A DNA stretch of 64,000 nt from Hyaloraphidium curvatum (taxonomy: Eukaryota; Monoblepharomycota; Hyaloraphidiomycetes; Hyaloraphidiales; Hyaloraphidiaceae): positions 62,001 to 126,000 of the forward strand of contig JAIVFI010000018.1 of the NCBI GenBank assembly GCA_025558095.1. The letters are read 5' to 3'. This document shows positions 6,520 through 55,377 of the stretch, piece by piece. The notes under the pieces were generated by a model. That model saw nothing but the letters and a program-made list of their open reading frames with translations. It was not told the DNA's origin and did not search any database. Made by a program: the position numbers and the translations under genes. The stretch's first letter is position 1; each line of letters begins with the position of its first letter.

Positions 6520-9231
6520 TCACTTGGCCATGCCGTTGTCCTCCTTGATGATATCCGCAGCCTGGGAAAGGAAGGTCAGCCAACGCGCGCGACCCGCGCC
6601 AGAGAACCCCGCCGACCTTCTCCGCGACGGCGTACACAGGTGCGTTGGTGTTTCCCATTACGATGTCCGGGAAGCAGCTCGCGTCGACGACCCGGAGGTG
6701 CTTGATCCCGCGGACCTTCAGGCTGAGGTCCAGCACGGCGTTCTTGTCGCCGTCGGGGCCCATTCTGCAGGTAGACACTGTGCGCGGGGATGATCAGACG
6801 AAGCCATTGCCGAGCAGACGAGATGCAGACGTACCAGGGTGGTACACGGTGATGGCCTTGCGCCGCACGAGCTCGCGGAGGTACTCGTCGCTCTCCGGGG
6901 GCGCCTGCACGAACGAGCGCGCGGTGAGCCGGATCGATCCCGCCGCCGCCGCCGACCGCGGACCCACCTTGATCTCCTCGTCCAGAATCTCGTGCAGTGT
7001 CAGCGACTTGAGCGGCTCCGAGGCAGCCACCTTGCGCGTCATCTTGAGGCCGCGGACCAGGGCTTCCTCGTCGTCGGGGTGGGCGAGGTAGTTGGGCTCG
7101 ATGAGGGGGTACTCGAAGGGGTCGGAGGATTTGAGGGAGAGGTGGCCGGCACTCTTGGGGTTCAGCATCACCGGCGTGAGGGTGTAAGCGTACGGGTATT
7201 TGCCCTTGGGGTCGAGGGGTTCGACTGTCGGGCGGGGTGACGATTAGCAGGCTGACAATCCCGCAGAAGGCAAGAAGCGCGCACTGTTGCCCGTGGCCTT
7301 GATGTCGGCAAACACATTTTTCGGCCCCCTGCGCCGAGGGTCCGTTAAGCAAGGCAGCAGCATCGCATGCGGTCCAGACCCACGAGTAGTACGTCGGCAT
7401 CCCGTAGAACTGCAGATCCGGCTTGCTCTTCTTCGTGTCCAGCCCGGAGTCGGCGTGCGCGATGATTTGGTGCTGCGGACCGGGATCAGGATGGGCGCCG
7501 ACAGCTCCCCGAGCGAGCTCACCGGAATGTACGCCAGGAAGCCCTTCTGGCTCCACAGGTTGCTATACACGGTCGAGAGCAGGTAGCTGTAGTCGAGCTC
7601 GTACATGGAGAACGGCCCTGGAGTCTGACGCGTGAGAAGAGAACCTGACGTCCGCGACCCCGGATTGAGCCCACCCTTATTCGTGGCGAAGCAGTGGTAA
7701 ACGAACAAGTGGTCTTTGAGGTTGCGGCCGACGGCGGGGATGTCGACGAGCGGCTTGATGCCGACCTTCTGCAGATCTTTCGCCGGACCGATACCCTGAC
7801 GAGCGGCAACAATCGTCAGATGCAGTTCGCGCTTCCCGGCGAAATCGTTGGCAGCCCACCGAAAGCATCAGCAGCCAGGGGCTGTTGATTGCGCCGCCCG
7901 AGAGGATGACCTCCTTCTTCGCCTTCACGACCTGGTCCGGCGCGTTCTTCATCTCGGCCGTCGTGTAGCCCTGGCGGAGCTGCACGCCCGTCGCGGTCTT
8001 GGTGGCCTCGTCGACGAGGATCTTGGTCGCGTGGGAGTTCTGAAGCGAGTGATCAGTGGGTTTCAGAACCGGAGAAAAGGGCGAATCGCGCAAGGACGCA
8101 CGGTGGCGATCGTCAGGTTCTTGCGGTTTATGGCACCTGAGGTGGTCGGGCACAATGAGTCCCCGGGTTCCAGCTCCACTGCCGCCAGCCAAGCACGTAC
8201 CCGTCTTCTGGAGGAACGCCCGGTACGCGTCGTCCCTGATCCCCTTGTCCACCGTGTGCTGCACCGGCGCCACACCCCGAAGCTCTCCTCCGTTGTAGTC
8301 CTCCGTGGCCTTTTCGATCCCGGCGTTGAGGAAAGACTTGTAGATGATGCCGTTCCAGGGGTGGAGGTTCTTCTCGACCTGCTCGGGCGTGAAGTAGGTG
8401 ACGGAGAGCGGGCCCGAGGTGCCGTGATTCGGGAGGGTGACGGGCTTCCCGTCGTCGTCCTGGAGCCTCTCGCTCTTCATGAAGTATGGCAAGAGCGACT
8501 TGTAATCCCAACCCTTGCAGCCCCACTTGGTGGCCCATTCCTGGCAAGAAACGCCCTCAGCGACTTCCCCGAGATGGAATTCGTCGTTGGAGCCTCACAT
8601 CGTAGTCCTGGGGGGCACACCTGACATACATCGCAGCGTTGATCGAAGAGCTGCCGCCGAGACCCTTTCCCCGGGGCTGGGAGTCTCCATGTGAGCGCCA
8701 AGACCTCCATGCCCTGCAGCAGCACACACCCAGAAGTGAACGCGGTCCGCAGTCGTCTTCTGCGGCGTGGTCCGGAACGACCAGTCGAACACGCTGTTCT
8801 GGAGGTTCGCGACACGCCTGCGGGTCCGCGGGGTGAGACACGCCGTTCCTCCAGGGCTGAAACCGGCCCCCACATCATCCTGTGAATGTCGAACGTGTCA
8901 TTGCTCTGTCCCGCTTCGAGCAGCAGGACGGAAACGTTGGGGTCCTGACGGGCGGCCAAAGTCAGTTCGGAGCCGCATTCCGCCCCGCGGCGCCGCTCAC
9001 CTCCGAAAGACGCGACGCCAGAACGCATCCCGCCGAGCCGGCTCCGACAATGACAACTGGAACGGGGAGGACTCACTCAGGATCCGTGGCGTCGACAACG
9101 AGACGCGTCCACCGACAGTCATATTCCTGCCCGTCCACCTTCTTCAGCCCGGAGCCCCAGAGCCCGAACGCGGCAAGCGCAGTGCCGGCACCTCCGGTGC
9201 CGAAGAACAGGGCGCGCAATCGGCCGGCCAT
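6520..9231 (-). CDS. GMC-family flavin oxidoreductase (choline dehydrogenase-like), multi-exon
   Basis: The start at 9231 gives MAGRLRALFFGTGG, a hydrophobic N-terminal anchor or signal, then VDGQEYD. A 60-bp intron (9116-9057) fuses this to FVIVGAGSAGCVLASRLSE, the FAD-binding GxGxxG motif. Downstream exons carry LLLEAGQSNDT, the GMC signature GKGLGGSSSINAA, GGAINSPWLL and SAGHLSLKSSDPFEYP. At the C-terminus HPVSTCRMGPDGD and DASCFPDIVMGNTNAP hold the catalytic His and Asn. The last intron splits EK|AADIIKEDNGMAK. Family members oxidise alcohols, sugars or choline with FAD. The substrate is unknown. Several short introns, some multiples of three, break the gene, so the internal exon edges that I did not trace are approximate. 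Confidence 0.85.
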
Positions 9232-10212: not shown

Positions 10213-10929
10213 CTATCGCCTCCGCGCCCGAAACAGCCAGAGATCCTCCCCGCCCTTGAAGTCCTCGTGCTGATCTTCCTCCTTGACGTGGGAAAACGGG
10301 AACTCCTGCCCGAGGAGGTGGAAGAATCGCGCCTCGACCTCGAGATCCCTCCTCTCGTAGGCCAGGAACACGGCAGTCCTCCGTCCCGCGGTCCCGGCCC
10401 CGGCCGGCGTTGATACCGCAACGAGTGTCTCCATCAGCGGCTCGAACAAGTCCGGCCAATGAACAACGTCGCTAAGGAGCACCACGTCGTAAGGCGGCTC
10501 CAAACCGCCGGCCCGCAGGGCGTCCAGGTGGTCCTTTCCCCACGGCAGCTCAGCAACCTTCACGTTCTCCCCCGCCCGCGTGGCGTTCGCCTTCGCCAGG
10601 TCCACGAACTTGTCTGTCAGCGCGACTTCGGCCCCCGGCCAGAGCCTCTTTGCCACCAGGCCCACCAACCCCGTCCCGCACCCGAGCTCGATCACTTTCT
10701 TCCCGTCTAGCGATTCGGACGCGTTGCCGTCCCGGCAGAGGCGCTCCAAGTACTTGGACAGCACGAGCGCGGAATCCCAGACGGTGGTACCGATCCCGCC
10801 TTCGCCCGAGGCTCGTTGGAGGACCGAGAGGGGAGCCAGGGAGGTGTCATCGAACTCGTATGTATACGGATAGTAGTCCGGGTCGTTGTCGAGCGAAGGC
10901 GAGGCAGCAGAGGACGCGTCGGCGGCCAT
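10213..10929 (-). CDS. METTL21/EFM-type protein lysine methyltransferase
   Basis: An intronless 238-residue product. A typical N-terminal lead (YYPYTYEFDDTSLAPLSVLQ) and TTVWDSALVLSKYLERL are followed by motif I IELGCGTGLVGLVAKRL for S-adenosylmethionine binding, an acidic loop ALTDKF, the post-I/II region PPYDVVLLSDVVHWPDLFEP and FLAYERRDLEVEARFF. That order is characteristic of methyltransferase family 16, which includes fungal and human enzymes that methylate lysines on translation factors or chaperones. The D/E-x-x-Y-type motif is represented by LLSDVVHW. The target protein cannot be deduced. It is predicted to be cytosolic, with no membrane segment. Confidence 0.8.
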   Translation of the reverse strand: MAADASSAASPSLDNDPDYYPYTYEFDDTSLAPLSVLQRASGEGGIGTTVWDSALVLSKYLERLCRDGNASESLDGKKVIELGCGTGLVGLVAKRLWPGAEVALTDKFVDLAKANATRAGENVKVAELPWGKDHLDALRAGGLEPPYDVVLLSDVVHWPDLFEPLMETLVAVSTPAGAGTAGRRTAVFLAYERRDLEVEARFFHLLGQEFPFSHVKEEDQHEDFKGGEDLWLFRARRR

Positions 10930-11116
10930 CGTTGAGTTGGCGTAAACAAAGCGACGCCGCGGACGGTCAGCGTGCCGAACATTTTACGCGTTGGGCTCCG
11001 CACTCGACAGTGGACCGCATCGCTGGCCCTCCGGCCTCCTACATCGCGTGCAATCTCGTTCTTAGTAATGGAGCACGCAGAGAACCAGAGTGACGACATC
11101 CTGAGTCTGGCGCGAG

Positions 11117-14100
11117 TTGTTGCGGCGCGGGCTTGGGTGCGGCATGGCTGTGCTTCCTGGCCGTCGGCGATCCGGGGAGGCAGGCTCCGCAATGGCGTCT
11201 TCTCAGGCGACCGAGTACCGTAGCTACGGCGGGTTCGGCAACAACGAGCAGTTCCCGACGCGCGGCGCCGGGCTCCAGCCGTACCTCTTGACGAACGGCG
11301 GCGGCTTCGATGAGACGGAGCCCGAGTTCTCCGACGGCCGGGGTGCCGCGTTTGCATCGGCCGTCTCATTCGACCGCGCCTCCAATCGCTCGGTGTTTGT
11401 GCCCGCGGGCTCCGGCCGGCCGCGCACGCTGCCGACCGCGCGATTCCTCTCGAACGCGCTCTTTGCCTTCGGCGCCAACGTTTCGAGGCCCGGCGAGCTG
11501 CCTGCTGCGCCCGACCCGCCCAATTCGCGCCGCATGCTCTCGGACATGGTCACCTACTTCGGGCATCTTCTCTCGGGCGACATCGACCGCGGCATCCCCT
11601 CTGGCGAGTTCCATTTCCCCCTGGGCGCGACTACTCCGGAGCCATGGCCCCTGGCAATCCCCTCGTGCGACCCCGTGTTCGACCCGTTGTGCGCCGGAAC
11701 ACCTCAGCCCGCCGAGATGGCATTCACCCGCAACCTGGCGGTGACGAACGCATCCGACTCGCCCGGGCGCCGCCGGGCGATCAACAGCGTGTCGGCATTT
11801 GTCGACCTGTCGCCGCTCTACGCCGACGATCCCGAATCGGCGGCCTTTCTCCGGCGGGACACCGGCGGCCTCCTGCGCTCGCACGTGATTCCGACGACCT
11901 ACGTCGAGGACGGTGTCTCAACGACCGTCGACGCAGAATTTCCCCCGTTGATCCGCGAGATCGACGGACCGTGGTCGCGCTACAAGGTGCCCCGCGCAGG
12001 CCTCGTGGACCCCGGCGATCTCTTTGCCGTAGGCGCGATGAGTTTCAACGGCGCGATCCCCACCATCTCCCTGGTCACCCTTTTCCACCGGAACCATAAT
12101 CGCCTGGCGCGCCTGCTCTCGCAGGAGAACCCTTCGTGGGACGATGCCACCCTTTTCGAAGAAGCCCGCCGCCGCAACATCGCGCACTACCAGCGAGTCA
12201 CCTTCTTCGAGTACCTCCCCGTGCTCCTGGGCAGCAACGCGCTTCCCCCTTACCAAGGCTACAATGCCTCCCTCGACCCGGGCATTGACTGCTTCTTTGC
12301 TATGGCTACGATGCGCTACGGACACTCGGAAGTCGGCGACTCGGTCCGCATTGTCCCCCCTCGGACTTCGCCGCACCCCGAGCTATCCGTGCCCTTCGTC
12401 CAGCCGGCCTTCCGCCCGCTGTCCCTTCTTGAAACATACGACATTGGTGCGCCCCTACTGGGCGCGGCGGTAACGGTGCAGCGGGACGTGGACATCTACT
12501 ACTCCGACTCGCTCCGGAGCAAGGTGTGGGACCACCCCAACCGCGGCGGGAGGGACGAGGCGGCGATCGACATCGAACGCGGGAGGGACTGCGGATGCGG
12601 GAACTACCTCAACGCCCGGCGGGCGCTGGGTCTGCCTGTCCCGGCCGCGTTTGCCGAGGTCGCCGAGGATCCTGCGCTCGCTGAGCGCATGGCCGAGGCC
12701 TACGGTGGCAGGCTGGAGCTGCTGGATGCTCTGGTCGGTGCGTACGCAGAGCCAAAGGTGAACGGGGGCAACCTCGGCGCGACGTTCTTCGAGTCGCTTG
12801 TGAGGCAATTTGCCCGCCTGAGGGACGGGGACAGGTTCTACTACCTAGCGGACGAAGCGGGCTTCACGGACTTGGAGAGGGCCGAGATCGGGAACGTGAC
12901 GTTGCGCAAGCTGGTGCTGCTCAACTCGCCTGGCCTGGCGGAGGTGGACGTGCCGCGGGACCTGTGGCACGCGAGGTCGTCCGGCGGACTGGCCGCCGAC
13001 GACGGGGCCGATCCTCTCGCCGCGCGGTACACCAACGTCGTGCGCCTGACACCCGACTATACAATCTACTGGCGGATCGACGGGCGCTCGATCGCGGTCG
13101 CGCAGAAGCTGGCGAGTACGAGTGGCTGGGCTGGGTTGGCGTTCGCCGCGGGGATAGGACAGCTCATGCCGGGCGCCGACTTTGTCGTGGCTTCCAGGGA
13201 CGGGGTCAGTGGGAACGCGTCGGTGAGGCAGTACACCGCCAACCCGAAAGGATTCGACCGGCCTGTGGAACGGGATGATTCAGCGGTCAGGGTGGTCAAT
13301 GTTCAGGTCGGGAGCGACGGCCGATCGACGCTCTTCGAGTGGACTCGGCCGCTCGATACGGGCCAGCCCGGCGCCCAGGTGCTCGCTCGTGGCGCGCGGC
13401 AGCTGCTTTTTGCGTACGATACGTCCCAACCGGGGTTGACCTACCATGGAGCCAGCCGCGGCGCCTTCGTCGTCGATCTGTTTGACACGAGGGCGACGGC
13501 AGTGCTTGCCGCCCCGAGCAGTGTGGCAGTAGCTACGAGGACGGTGCACGGGATCGGAATGATTCTCGTCTTCGGAATCGTCTACCCGGCCGCAATCTAC
13601 ATCGCGCGCTACACGCGGCACACGGACTACTGGCTCAACCTCCACACCACGGCACAGACATTCGGCGGGGTGTCGTTCGTTGCACTGGGCACGGCAGCGG
13701 CAGCGACCGTTTCGGCAGTCGCGGTGACGAACCATGCCATAGGTGGGTTTGCGCGGCCCTGCTTGCTTTGTTCCTCCTGACGTTTCTCCTCCCAAGTCGG
13801 CATAACAATTTTCTCGCTCGTGGTGGTACAGCTTCTCCTCGGCTTCCTTGCTCGCCTCGGTCTCTCCAAGCGGTTCCAGGGCTATGCGTACCTCCGCATG
13901 GGGCACAGAGTGTTTGGTGCCTGCATCCTTCTACTCGGCTGGGCCAACATCCAGCTCGGCCTTCAGCAGCAGTGGCCGTCGACGGGCTGGATCGGCAACA
14001 TCGTCGTTGGGGCCTGGCAAGCTCTGCTGGCGACGCTGTTTCTCCTTACGGAGCTCGGTTGGCGCGGTATCGTACCTTTTCCGATGCCTGACGAGGTCCT

Positions 14101-15550
14101 GGGACCGGTGGTGGGCAAGGTCAGAAGATGGCTCTCTGGAGTCTTCGGTGGTGAGGCGCCCGAGAAAGAGGTCGCGGCGAAAGTGGTGGAGGTGCCGATC
14201 TATGGCTGGGCCGACGTAAACCGCCGGGTGGCGGAGGGCGAGGAGTGGGTCGTGATCGCCGGAGGGTGGGTGCTTTCTCCGATATCCAAACGTGAAGCGC
14301 TGAACCTTGTCGCCCTTGAAGAGTCTACGACGTATCCGAATGGAAATCTAGCCATCCTGGCGGCAAGGAGGTGCTGAAGAAGATGATCGGACTGGATGCG
14401 ACGGCCGTGAGTGGCGGCAAGTCGTGAGACCTGACTGAGCCGAGACCTGATCTCTTCTTCCATCGCACAGGAATTCTTCGGCGGCGTCGTCCCCAAGGAC
14501 GTGGAATCACCCGCCGACGACGATTTCGATGCCAACCTCGGCGGCACAAAGGCCCGCCGGCGCTGGCGTCGCGCGCCCACCGCGCCCTTGCTCGATCTAA
14601 ACGCGACAGTGCTCGGCTCGCAGGCGCAGCTTGTCGCCAAGCCCGCGCAGAAGATCGCCGCCGAGTCGCACGCGCACACGCCCTTCGCGGACGGCAAGCT
14701 CGCCTCGCTGCTCGTCGGTCGACTGGCCCGGAGCACGACGGAAAAGATAGCCGGGGGCTCGTCGGGGATGCAGGACGAGTTCAGGCGCTTCGTCGTCGCG
14801 GCCAAGGGCGAGTCGGCGCGGGGAAACACGGCAAGGAGGTTCACTCTAGTGCCGGTCGTGCCGCGATCGGGCGATGCGGCCGAGTTCCTACCGGGCCAGG
14901 CGGTTGAGATTCGGGCGCGGATCAAGAAGCGCATGGTGATCAGGTTGGAGCCGCCCCTTGAGAAGTGTTTTGCTTCTGCTGATGGTGGCCGCGATCGCAG
15001 GTCGTACACCCCGATCTCCGGGAACATGGTCGACGGCTTTGACATTGCCGTCAAGATCAAGCCCCGCGGACAGATGACCCCGTTCCTGGACTCGCTCGCG
15101 GTCGGCAAGGCCGTCGTGGAGGTCCGCGGCCCCACCGGCACGGTCGTGCTCGACGCCGACAGCCCGGACGGGTGCTACGACCACCTCCTGATGGTCGCCG
15201 GCGGGAGCGGGATCACGCCGATGGTGCAGCTGGCGCACTGGCACGCGCATCGGGCGTCGGCGCACGATCGGGGGCCCCTGCAGCGGCTGATCTACTACAA
15301 CCGGACCGAGGCCGAGGCGATGGAGCTCCCGGATCTGCGGAGGCTTTCCGATTTGACGGAGAGGAGGTTCGTCATGGAGCTCGAGGAGGGCGAGCCGGTG
15401 CAGGAGCAGCTTGCCGAGGGGGTTGCCGAGATCACGCTGGCGGAGGGGAGCAAGAAGATTGCGGTATGCGGGCCGGCAGGCTTTTGCTCGGCCGTTGAAG
15501 GCCTGCTCGGACACTTGGGAGTGCCCGAGGACCTGATCTATGTCATCTGA
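11117..15550 (+). CDS. Heme peroxidase-DOMON-cytochrome b561-cytochrome b5-FAD/NAD reductase fusion protein
   Basis: About 1,400 residues in four exons. Module 1 (11.2-12.9 kb) is an animal-type heme peroxidase: EYRSYGGFGNN, SAFVDLSPLYADD, LFHRNHNRLARLL, MRYGHSEVGD, DIERGRDCGCGNYLNARR. Module 2 is a DOMON domain with Met (GQLMPGADF, 13166) and His (LTYHGASRG, 13445) as likely heme ligands. Module 3 is cytochrome b561 with about five helices and the four expected His (codons at 13547, 13643, 13733, 13904). Module 4 is cytochrome b5 (VYDVSEWKSSHPGGKEVL). Module 5 is a b5-reductase-like domain: RRSYTPIS (FAD), GGSGITPM and CGPAGF (NAD(P)H). Introns lie at 13743-13796, 14266-14321 and 14407-14470; each splice restores an expected motif. 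The start is uncertain (11117 or 11192), with no signal peptide visible, so a 5' exon may be missing. Inferred role: transmembrane electron transfer from NAD(P)H to the outer heme domains. Confidence 0.85.
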
Positions 15551-49362: not shown

Positions 49363-50728
49363 ATGGACGACGCGGGGGAGAAGCCGCTGCTCAAGGCCGC
49401 GGCCACCGGCACGCAGAAGGGCGTGGAGGAGGACTCGATGGCCGCCGCGCCGCCGCCGCGCGCGCGCCGCGGCTGGCTCATCGCCGCCGCGCTGGGCGCG
49501 CTGCTGCTGGTCGGCCTGATCGTCGGGCTCGGCGTGGGGCTGGGAACCAAGTCAGCGGACGCATCTTCGTCGACCGCCCAGGGCGCGACGCTGGCCGCCG
49601 ACTCAGGCTCGCCGAAATTGGGCCCTGCCGGTGGAAACGTCAGCATTCTTTACGTGGGCTCGGAGCTCAAGGACTGCACCGGAATGATGCCGATGAAGTG
49701 GTACGTGGCAGCCCCGCCGGCTCCCCTTGAACGTTAACCCTGACCCGACTCCGGTCGTCCCTCGTTGCCTTTTGCGTGAACACAGCATGCAGGTCCGCGA
49801 CGACCCGTCGAAGCCCTGGCTCAACTTCTTCGGCGACATCCGCAACTTCACCTACGAGCCCGGCTTCGTCTACACGCTCCGCGTCGAGAAGACGCGGGTG
49901 CCCAACCCGCCGGCGGACGGCTCCTCCATCATCGTCACCTGCCTCGAGGTCATCTCGAAAGTCGGCCTGCCCGACGAGAAGCCCGAGATCCCGCCGCTCG
50001 AGGGCACCGAGTGGCAGCTCGTCGCCTTCCCCGCGCACGGCGGCGCCGTCGCTTCCGACCGTCGCGGCCCGCCCACGCTGCAGATCCAAGGCGGGCGGGC
50101 AGCGGGCATGGCCAGCGTCAACAGGTTCAGCGGCGAGGTCAACCACGACGACCGGTCCATCTCCTTCGGCCGCCTCGCGATGACGCGCATGATGGGCCCC
50201 GAGGCGCTCATGCGGCAGGAGCAGCTCTACGCCTCGCTGCTCGCCAACTCGACCGCGTACAGCATCCACATGCTCACGGGCAGCCCCAAGCTCGACCTCC
50301 TCAACTCTAGCGGCACCGTTGTCCTCACCTTCGCCCCCAAGGAGGCCGGTGCGGGCGCCGGATCCGGCTCCGGTGCCGCCTCGACGCTGCTCGGCACCTC
50401 GTGGACGCTGAAACTGCTCGGCGGCAACCCGCCCCGGGCGGAGCGCATCCCGACGCTGCAGTTCTCGGACTCGGAGCCCGTGCGCGCCTCCGGCCTAGCG
50501 ACCGTCAACCGCTACTCGGCCTCGGCGACTATCGACGGGTCCAAGCTGTCGTTTGGGAAAGACATGGTGATGACCATGATGGCTGCGGATCCCCGGAGCA
50601 TGGAGCAGGAGTCGCAGTTCACGGGGGCGCTGGGCCGAGTGGCGACCTGGGAGGTGGCTGAGGTGGTCGGGAAGAAGCAGCTTACGCTCAAGGACGAGCA
50701 GGGCGAGGCGATCCTCGTCTTCCAATGA
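49363..50728 (+). CDS. Membrane-anchored DUF4377 plus double META-domain protein
   Basis: The product starts MDDAGEKPLLKAAATGTQKG, a cytosolic tail before one anchor (LIAAALGALLLVGLIVGLGV). An 85-bp intron (49701-49785) joins MMPMK to CMQVRDDPSKPWLNFFGDI, the DUF4377-type domain with FVYTLRVEKTRVPNPPADGS. Two META (HslJ-type) domains follow: LEGTEWQLVAFPAHGG...PTLQIQGGRAAGMASVNRFS and LLGTSWTLKLLGGNPP...PTLQFSDSEPVRASGLATVN. Each ends in the TMM(G/A)-type block (MTRMMGPEALMRQEQLY, MTMMAADPRSMEQESQF). These families are mostly bacterial envelope proteins, linked in some cases to heat stress or novobiocin resistance. No catalytic residues are known, so function is unassigned. Topology: most of the protein is outside or lumenal. 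Confidence 0.8.
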
Positions 50729-53880: not shown

Positions 53881-55377
53881 TCATACCAACAGAAGGCCAG
53901 CCATTACGGCAGCCGCGAGAGAGCAGGTAACGAGCGATGAGCTCGACGACGCTGCTCCGCTGGGCTTCACCGTGTTCGTCCCAATACCCCCTTCCGCAGA
54001 CGACACGGGGACCAGTGCGGGCGCGGATGGATCCTCGACGAGCCGAATGACCTGCCCCACGGAGTCGATCGAGACCCAGATTCCCCCCTGGCGATCGATC
54101 ACGACCCCGACGGGCCTGATGCAGTTAATGCGTTCGGCGGTGGTCCTGCACTTCGTGAGGTCGGAGTCACCAAAGAGAACCTCGTACTTGGTCGTGCTCG
54201 TGACCGTCAGCGGCGAAGATGCGAGGCCACGAACGAGGTACAGTGCGTAGCCTTGCGGAACCGGCCGGTTCCACGAGCCATGAGTGGCCACGAGCATGTC
54301 GCCTCTGGAGAGCTTGCTCGTCGAGTTCTCGACGATCGCGAGGTCCAAAGGAGCAGTGTGCGGGGGCAATAGAAAGACAGGAGGCACATTGCGCGCGGGA
54401 TTGCGGCAGATAGCGTCGTTGGCAGCGGATGCGGTGTAGTTTTCGCCCGTCACCGACCACTGGTTGCCGCGGAATGAAGTGTGAGGGGACGGCAGCAAGA
54501 ATTCGGAAAAGCACATGGGAAAACCAAAGTCTGGGACCTTCGAGTTGCTGCTGCTACTCGGGATCGGGATGACGTTGACCTCTTCGCCAGGGTTGTCGAC
54601 GTAGATACTGCCTCCGAGATCCGCCCGCTCGAGGTCGTCCGAGCCATTGTCGATGCTCCAGATCCCGCCAGGGCCGAAGCGAAAGGCGACGATGTTTCGC
54701 AGGCCAGTCGCAACGAGCTCGGCACCGGCCGGGAAGACCAAAGCGTTTGCCGAGTCCTCGATTGCGGCCAGCGTTGAAAGAGGGTAGCGCCATAGCGTGG
54801 CCCGGTTCTCGCCCGCCAGGAGGTTGCCGTAGCTGCCGACCGAGATATAGAGGAAAGTCGCCAGACCAGGATCGACCTCGAGCGTCCTGGTGTAGTGTCC
54901 TTGCGGGGGGATGTCGCGTATGACGATGACCGGGGAATCAGTGTTCTGCGGTGTGCTCGCGTTGCCGCAGCCTTCCCAACGCCAGCGATAGACGAACTGG
55001 GGCGACGAGAGGTAAATCTGTCGACGAGAAGAGTCCACCGCGACGCCGTGGTTGGGCCGCGTGTCCAGTGTGTCCGCAATCGTCTCCGTGAAGTCGAGCG
55101 CCGTGAAGGGTCGAGTGGCGTTGGCTCGCAGGCAGGCGAGCCGGCGGGACCCAGGGATCACGGCGAGAACGGCGTCCGATAAGGGATCGAGCGTGATGCC
55201 CCGAACGCCGGCAAGCGTGGTGAACACGCGGTCGACAAGGAGTCCGGCAGCGAGGTCGTATTGGGAAGCATTTATTGGGGTTCCCTGGTACGCGAGTCCC
55301 GGGGCGGCCAGGAGCATTGTTGCCGCAAGCGCTGCCACAGCGATGGCGCGGAATGGCGGGGTCATCGTGGGCGCCAT
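53881..55377 (-). CDS. GPI-anchored PQQ-type sugar dehydrogenase (AA12/sorbosone dehydrogenase-like)
   Basis: An intronless 498-residue product has a signal peptide (FRAIAVAALAATMLLAAPGL) and a C-terminal Ser-rich stretch plus hydrophobic tail (SLVTCSLAAAVMAGLLLV), a GPI-anchor signal. The beta-propeller shows RGITLDPLSDAVLAVI, RPNHGVAVDSSRRQIYLS, TLEVDPGLATFLYISVGS, ATGLRNIVAFRFGPGGIWSI, SDDLERADLGGSIYVDNPGE, GDMLVATHGSWNRPVPQGYA and CIRPVGVVIDRQGGIWVSID. HGSWNR and GLRN are the hallmark blocks of soluble quinoprotein glucose/sorbosone dehydrogenases. Fungal AA12 members oxidise pyranoses with PQQ and pass electrons to a cytochrome. Here no cytochrome or CBM1 module is fused. Predicted to act at the cell surface. 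Confidence 0.85.
   Translation of the reverse strand: MAPTMTPPFRAIAVAALAATMLLAAPGLAYQGTPINASQYDLAAGLLVDRVFTTLAGVRGITLDPLSDAVLAVIPGSRRLACLRANATRPFTALDFTETIADTLDTRPNHGVAVDSSRRQIYLSSPQFVYRWRWEGCGNASTPQNTDSPVIVIRDIPPQGHYTRTLEVDPGLATFLYISVGSYGNLLAGENRATLWRYPLSTLAAIEDSANALVFPAGAELVATGLRNIVAFRFGPGGIWSIDNGSDDLERADLGGSIYVDNPGEEVNVIPIPSSSSNSKVPDFGFPMCFSEFLLPSPHTSFRGNQWSVTGENYTASAANDAICRNPARNVPPVFLLPPHTAPLDLAIVENSTSKLSRGDMLVATHGSWNRPVPQGYALYLVRGLASSPLTVTSTTKYEVLFGDSDLTKCRTTAERINCIRPVGVVIDRQGGIWVSIDSVGQVIRLVEDPSAPALVPVSSAEGGIGTNTVKPSGAASSSSSLVTCSLAAAVMAGLLLV

Follow-up and report, generated by a model that had tools for sequence, protein, structure and literature searches.

A gene of Hyaloraphidium curvatum joining a peroxidase-like domain to DOMON, cytochrome b561, cytochrome b5 and a flavin reductase

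CYBDOM proteins, such as CRR of Arabidopsis and Imp1 of Magnaporthe, carry a DOMON-type domain followed by cytochrome b561, and CRR has five helices, four b561 histidines and a Met/His pair in its DOMON domain, according to the available parts of their descriptions (PMC10784552, PMC6281275). In the accessible text on the peroxidase superfamily, catalytic members have the distal motif GQxxDHD (glutamine, ester-forming aspartate and catalytic histidine), and the proximal histidine is absent from dual oxidases (DUOX; PMC4420034). Excerpts of other papers report an outer DOMON domain on transmembrane ferric reductases of Naegleria and oomycetes (PMC3591440), another case of mixing in NOX proteins of sponges, whose additional helices match b561 (PMC9524095), Chaetomium members of the superfamily, either cyclooxygenase-like or linoleate diol synthases (PMC5041501), and animal-type peroxidases restricted, within one species set, to animals, one brown alga and one green alga (PMC7730656). 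Here we analyze a gene of the fungus Hyaloraphidium curvatum lying in a window of 64,000 nucleotides, by which we mean the whole stretch of DNA studied (contig JAIVFI010000018.1, positions 62,001 to 126,000). This single gene on the forward strand is confirmed to encode, in order, an An_peroxidase-type domain, DOMON, b561, cytochrome b5 and a flavin reductase resembling NADH-cytochrome b5 reductase (CYB5R).

The encoded protein resembles dual oxidases in having a peroxidase-fold domain, presumably on the outer side, attached to a transmembrane redox protein with an FAD/NAD module, and in both cases the peroxidase domain is catalytically degenerate. It differs from them in having lost the distal rather than the proximal side of the haem, and in using b5, b561 and DOMON as carriers instead of a NOX/ferric-reductase domain. 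Ferric_reduct does not appear in the Pfam lists of either of the two copies of the fusion found in the genome, which has four matches to this family elsewhere; nor did Pfam find an EF-hand family in the window product at E<=0.001 or in the second copy (the paralog) at E<=10. Since neither a NOX domain nor EF hands were found, and the pattern of peroxidase loss is the opposite one, the protein does not belong among the dual oxidases; what remains is a likeness in working principle, that of a transmembrane reductase carrying a peroxidase-fold cap. An earlier note on this DNA, made from the sequence alone, had proposed a dual-oxidase-like machine with a working peroxidase. The electron chain of that proposal, from NAD(P)H through FAD, b5, b561 and DOMON to an outer haem, stays plausible with its ligands conserved (the second b5 ligand being uncertain), but its peroxidase output does not, the distal residues having been replaced. 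A maker of reactive oxygen species of the dual-oxidase kind retains the analogy at the level of modules; with the distal site lost, and Pfam listing neither a ferric-reductase transmembrane domain nor an EF hand, we consider it very improbable.

With CYBDOM proteins the fusion shares a DOMON domain above the family cut-off and the four-histidine b561 pattern of CRR, as given in the available part of its description (PMC10784552). It differs in that the descriptions of CRR and Imp1, in the parts at hand, mention neither a peroxidase domain nor b5 nor a fused flavin reductase, and CRR is ascorbate-dependent whereas the fusion has a reductase of its own. The DOMON ferric reductases are built on a ferric-reductase domain, with no b561, b5 or peroxidase-like domain mentioned in the accessible portion of the source (PMC3591440). 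Fold, proximal histidine and two calcium-site aspartates are common to the first domain and to peroxidases of the peroxidase-cyclooxygenase superfamily (the cyanobacterial TDX16 peroxidase, 8s6c; Dictyostelium PoxA, 6erc; lactoperoxidase), but the fusion lacks GQxxDHD and RxxE and is joined to a membrane electron chain. Finally, FAD_binding_6 and NAD_binding_1 adjoining cytochrome b5 are the arrangement of NADH-cytochrome b5 reductases and of the flavin module of nitrate reductase, to which the fusion adds b561, DOMON and peroxidase-like domains.

Gene structure and the second copy

The gene has five exons (table 1) and, from the ATG at 11144, a product of 1391 amino acids, with the stop codon at 15548-15550. 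One stop-free frame (11105-13780) covers the peroxidase-like domain, DOMON and the beginning of b561, and the stop between 12.9 and 13.5 kb that would have split the gene, a possibility raised in the earlier note, is not there. Splicing of introns 1-3, all GT..AG, restores TNHAIVGITIFS, GGVYDVSEW and GLDATAEFF exactly as had been noticed before; intron 4 was overlooked because its length preserves the reading frame, and its removal gives KKRMVIRSYTPIS, matched by KKNRIVVRQYTPIS in the paralog. The start formerly placed at 11117 has no ATG. In-frame ATGs lie at 11144 and 11192, and one at 11068 is usable only with an additional intron.

Table 1. Coordinates of the fusion gene and its parts (window numbering)
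Feature	Position	Strand	Details
Whole gene	11144..15550	+	exons 11144-13742, 13797-14265, 14322-14406, 14471-14943, 15001-15550; 5' end uncertain
Animal-type haem-peroxidase domain	11393..12943	+	An_peroxidase, residues 84-600; structural match from about residue 22
DOMON domain	13028..13528	+	residues ~629-795; presumed haem ligands Met675 (13166-13168) and His768 (13445-13447)
Cytochrome b561	13541..14077	+	residues ~800-960; five hydrophobic helices; His802/834/864/903; intron 1 within
Intron 1	13743-13796	+	54 nt, GT..AG, inside b561
Cytochrome b5 core	14207..14500	+	residues 1004-1061; HPGG His1034; introns 2 and 3 within
Intron 2	14266-14321	+	56 nt, GT..AG, inside b5
Intron 3	14407-14470	+	64 nt, GT..AG, inside b5
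Conserved His-x-His (1118, 1120)	14669..14677	+	after insert; candidate second b5 haem ligand
FAD/NAD(P)H reductase, NADH-cytochrome b5 reductase type	14765..15550	+	residues ~1150-1391; intron 4 within
Intron 4	14944-15000	+	57 nt, inside reductase module; paralog intron at same codon

The window product was scanned against Pfam in a 1410-residue version that retains intron 4 (E<=0.001, curated cut-offs). Above their cut-offs were An_peroxidase (290.5 bits), Cyt-b5 (51.5 bits), FAD_binding_6 (36.7 bits), Cytochrom_B561 (29.8 bits) and NAD_binding_1 (26.1 bits). DOMON is not in this list for the full product; scanned alone, its segment scores 38.2 bits in the window gene and 39.6 bits in the paralog (cut-off 32.7), which completes the set of families that the earlier note had named. 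Compared with solved structures, the first part of the protein matches lactoperoxidase-type enzymes, peroxinectin A, myeloperoxidase and DUOX1, and the last part NADH-cytochrome b5 reductase, nitrate reductase and cytochrome b5. Sequence searches of the PDB with the pairs of DOMON and b561 segments returned two weak, unrelated-looking rows and zero rows, respectively, and are uninformative on fold. A model of exon 1 has a mean predicted local distance difference test score (pLDDT) of 61.8, with values of at least 90 in 212 of 866 residues, nearly all in the peroxidase part; its DOMON/b561 part is unusable, as is a model of DOMON only (mean pLDDT 40).

The genome (31.9 Mb, 55 contigs), whose gene content and small introns point to a fungus, contains a paralog on another contig (L009:3294-7769, G000:C13), with the same order of modules in 1445 amino acids and a first exon of 1,078 codons that spans the peroxidase domain into b5. 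The two copies are only 49% identical, suggesting an old family. Amino-acid identity ranges from 33 to 65% over all 11 blocks compared, linkers included, and in every block codon position 2 is more alike than position 3, as expected of coding sequence. No third close copy of the tail is present in the genome, the remaining matches reaching at most 34 bits. That the five modules belong to one gene, as first proposed, is thus borne out by Pfam, by splicing and by the paralog. Two genes, or an artificial join in the assembly, we find scarcely credible, because the paralog repeats the order with one exon from peroxidase to b5; the uninterrupted frame from peroxidase through DOMON into b561 also speaks against it. 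Next to the paralog, a 568-residue open frame with many hydrophobic stretches (L009:874-2577, reverse strand) matches no Pfam family at E<=0.001.

The pocket of the peroxidase-like domain

The overall fold of the first domain is that of the peroxidase-cyclooxygenase superfamily. Both copies retain 60 of 87 conserved peroxidase columns, including proximal His394 (12323-12325, in the stretch RYGHSE of both) and Arg391, and the two calcium-site aspartates and other haem-side residues are also kept. In place of GQxxDHD, the window gene has GHLLSGD and the paralog GHYISND. Distal Gln, Asp and His are hence replaced by H141, S144 and G145 in the window gene (11564-11581), with Asn at 145 in the paralog. 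The distal RxxE, with its arginine and ester-forming glutamate, is SFNG in the window gene (S300 and G303, 12041-12052) and GFNG in the paralog, and the asparagine partner of the proximal histidine has become aspartate in both (Asp476 in the window gene, 12569-12571). With substitutions at all five of these distal positions, the domain is not a canonical peroxidase.

Bacterial and archaeal genomes yielded at least 549 peroxidase relatives, and the statistics of the pocket were taken from the best 80 loci. Distal His is present in 77 of these 80, Arg in all 80 and Glu in 79, whereas the partner of the proximal His is Asn in 77 and Asp in three. Where both fungal copies have His141, Gln occupies 76 of 76 rows, a set that leaves out four of the 80 (L074, L079, L087 and L092), all non-canonical, and therefore consists of rows picked for an intact segment. 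L074, L079 and L087 (open reading frames, ORFs, of 3383, 1566 and 2739 amino acids; two cyanobacteria and one metagenome-assembled genome of Gemmataceae) are without the distal-His segment, another domain of these large ORFs extending to that point; they have Asp for the proximal Asn, as the fungal copies do, yet retain RxxE. The fourth, L092:4911-8384, is a Saprospiraceae ORF with a tandem double peroxidase and the sole row of the 80 with Gln in place of the ester Glu.

In functional terms, this creates a puzzle: what would a peroxidase fold with such a pocket do? His141 might act as the base of a remodelled site, in which case the protein would be a transmembrane NAD(P)H peroxidase reducing external H2O2 with cytosolic NAD(P)H. 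The presence of His141 in both copies, against Gln in the bacterial rows with an intact segment, is in favor of this idea, and the Asp that replaces the proximal Asn is reminiscent of the His-Asp found on the proximal side in the peroxidase-catalase superfamily as presented in the accessible text (PMC4420034). However, the catalytic Arg is lost too (Ser/Gly), and the change of Asn to Asp also occurs in bacterial proteins retaining Arg and Glu, so that we judge a rebuilt peroxide reductase to be quite improbable. Alternatively, the domain could be a haemless or electrically idle cap with a structural, docking or regulatory role, as in dual oxidases, while DOMON, b561, b5 and the reductase would form the actual machine, a ferric or other reductase. 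We consider this unlikely, given that both copies retain His394 and Arg391 along with many further conserved columns and that dual oxidases have lost the proximal His instead, according to the same partial source (PMC4420034). Our order of preference consequently runs from a haem cap that passes electrons, through an idle structural cap, to a rebuilt peroxide reductase using His141.

A possible electron route

We lean, with a confidence slightly above even, toward a single-polypeptide transmembrane reductase driven by NAD(P)H and bearing a repurposed peroxidase-fold haem cap. Cytosolic NAD(P)H would reduce the FAD of the CYB5R-like module, from which electrons would pass to the fused cytochrome b5, across the membrane via two b561 haems, then to the outer DOMON haem and on to the N-terminal peroxidase-fold domain. 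This last domain would work as a cap, either transferring electrons through its haem or acting as terminal reductase, and would hand them to an outside acceptor for which O2, ferric iron, a quinone or a partner protein are candidates; such a role appears the most likely because the proximal His is kept while the distal catalytic and haem-ester residues are lost. Outward flow from cytosolic NAD(P)H is what we infer from the order of modules and the CYBDOM-like b561, and the presence of a fused reductase points to NAD(P)H, not ascorbate, as donor. The topology would be CYBDOM-like, with an outer DOMON domain, an odd number of helices and an inner C terminus.

Residues that would bind the haems are kept in both copies: the four b561 histidines (824, 856, 886 and 925 in the paralog), the DOMON Met/His pair, the His of b5 HPGG (His1034) and the proximal His of the peroxidase fold. 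Among the four DOMON sequences of the genome, Met675 is aligned in all and His768 in three. A further elaboration, which we regard as possible but hold tentatively, is a five-haem wire powered by NAD(P)H in which the peroxidase fold has been turned into the outer terminal, either to serve a new acceptor or to act as a cytochrome, making the protein an independent, b561-based counterpart of DUOX; the distal pocket would then have been rebuilt (His141, Gly/Asn145, SFNG/GFNG) and the proximal Asn exchanged for Asp.

Several observations weigh against the repurposed haem cap and the route leading to it. The search for a signal peptide in the window gene took in the region from 10700 to 11206, allowing an ATG and no more than a single intron of about 40-160 nt, and none of the 20 candidate 5' starts, judged by hydropathy and by eye with no predictor, was convincing; those of greatest hydrophobicity begin at 11068 and continue at 11180 or 11207. 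The outer position of the peroxidase-like domain, assumed in the earlier note, draws its support from the paralog, in which a hydrophobic, signal-peptide-like segment at the N terminus (LAPIVGLLLVAAALVPPSA) supports secretion of this domain. Hydropathy gives five b561 segments in the window gene and four above the cut in the paralog; soluble segments of the window product at about 293-314 and 665-683 also exceed this cut and were excluded from the helix count. A genome search with the DOMON family found two other genes and neither copy of the fusion, which implies that the DOMON of both is divergent, and the DOMON assignment depends on the Pfam match and the alignment, the model being too poor. 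The second b5 His is off its standard position, the Pfam match ending earlier and the His-x-His lying about 85 residues beyond the first ligand. The axial ligand may lie in this conserved pair, past an Arg-rich insert, a placement that presumably recalls the b5 domains of fatty-acid hydroxylases. In the paralog, NAD_binding_6, the ferric-reductase NAD family, is at its cut-off with 22.2 bits versus 31.2 for NAD_binding_1. Lastly, loss of the distal His is not unique by itself, since three of the 80 best bacterial relatives are without the segment.

The same genome has another DOMON protein (L106, G000:C42:56195-56581) with the Met and His common to the window gene; an HHM stretch follows its DOMON in another frame, which we take to be like dopamine beta-monooxygenase. 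On contig C33, a DOMON match (L107, 202494-202745) close to a b561 match (L006, 201854-202132) is probably an ordinary CYBDOM gene.

Distribution, window neighbors and meaning

Among the open-licence papers listed by full-text searches, no described peroxidase-DOMON-b561 protein came up, in keeping with the expectation of the earlier note; this comparison stands apart from eukaryotic protein databases, in which homologues of the fusion that are merely annotated may well exist. Two scans of viral contigs found no relative. Of the 694 ORFs with at least 150 amino acids on the matched strand at the best 80 bacterial loci, not one gave a match at E<=10 to the profiles of DOMON and b561, which are weak because they were built from only the two fungal sequences.

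Other genes for redox proteins lie in the same window, namely a GMC oxidoreductase (7680-8594) and a TrAA12-like domain (53884-55377, reverse strand, 105 bits), which we take to be of the pyrroloquinoline quinone sugar dehydrogenase kind. An ORF at 49697-50725 on the forward strand combines META (147.6 bits) and DUF4377 (70 bits) by Pfam. META is, we believe, best known from bacterial HslJ-like proteins, and transfer of this ORF is possible.

If the proposed reading is true, a fungus has built, from parts unrelated to NOX-type enzymes, a path within one protein by which electrons of NAD(P)H reach the exterior, and the last station of this path is a domain that has kept the peroxidase fold but not the appearance of a peroxidase. 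The situation would parallel that of the puzzling inactive peroxidase domain of DUOX, and the fusion would offer a tractable model for the role of such domains.

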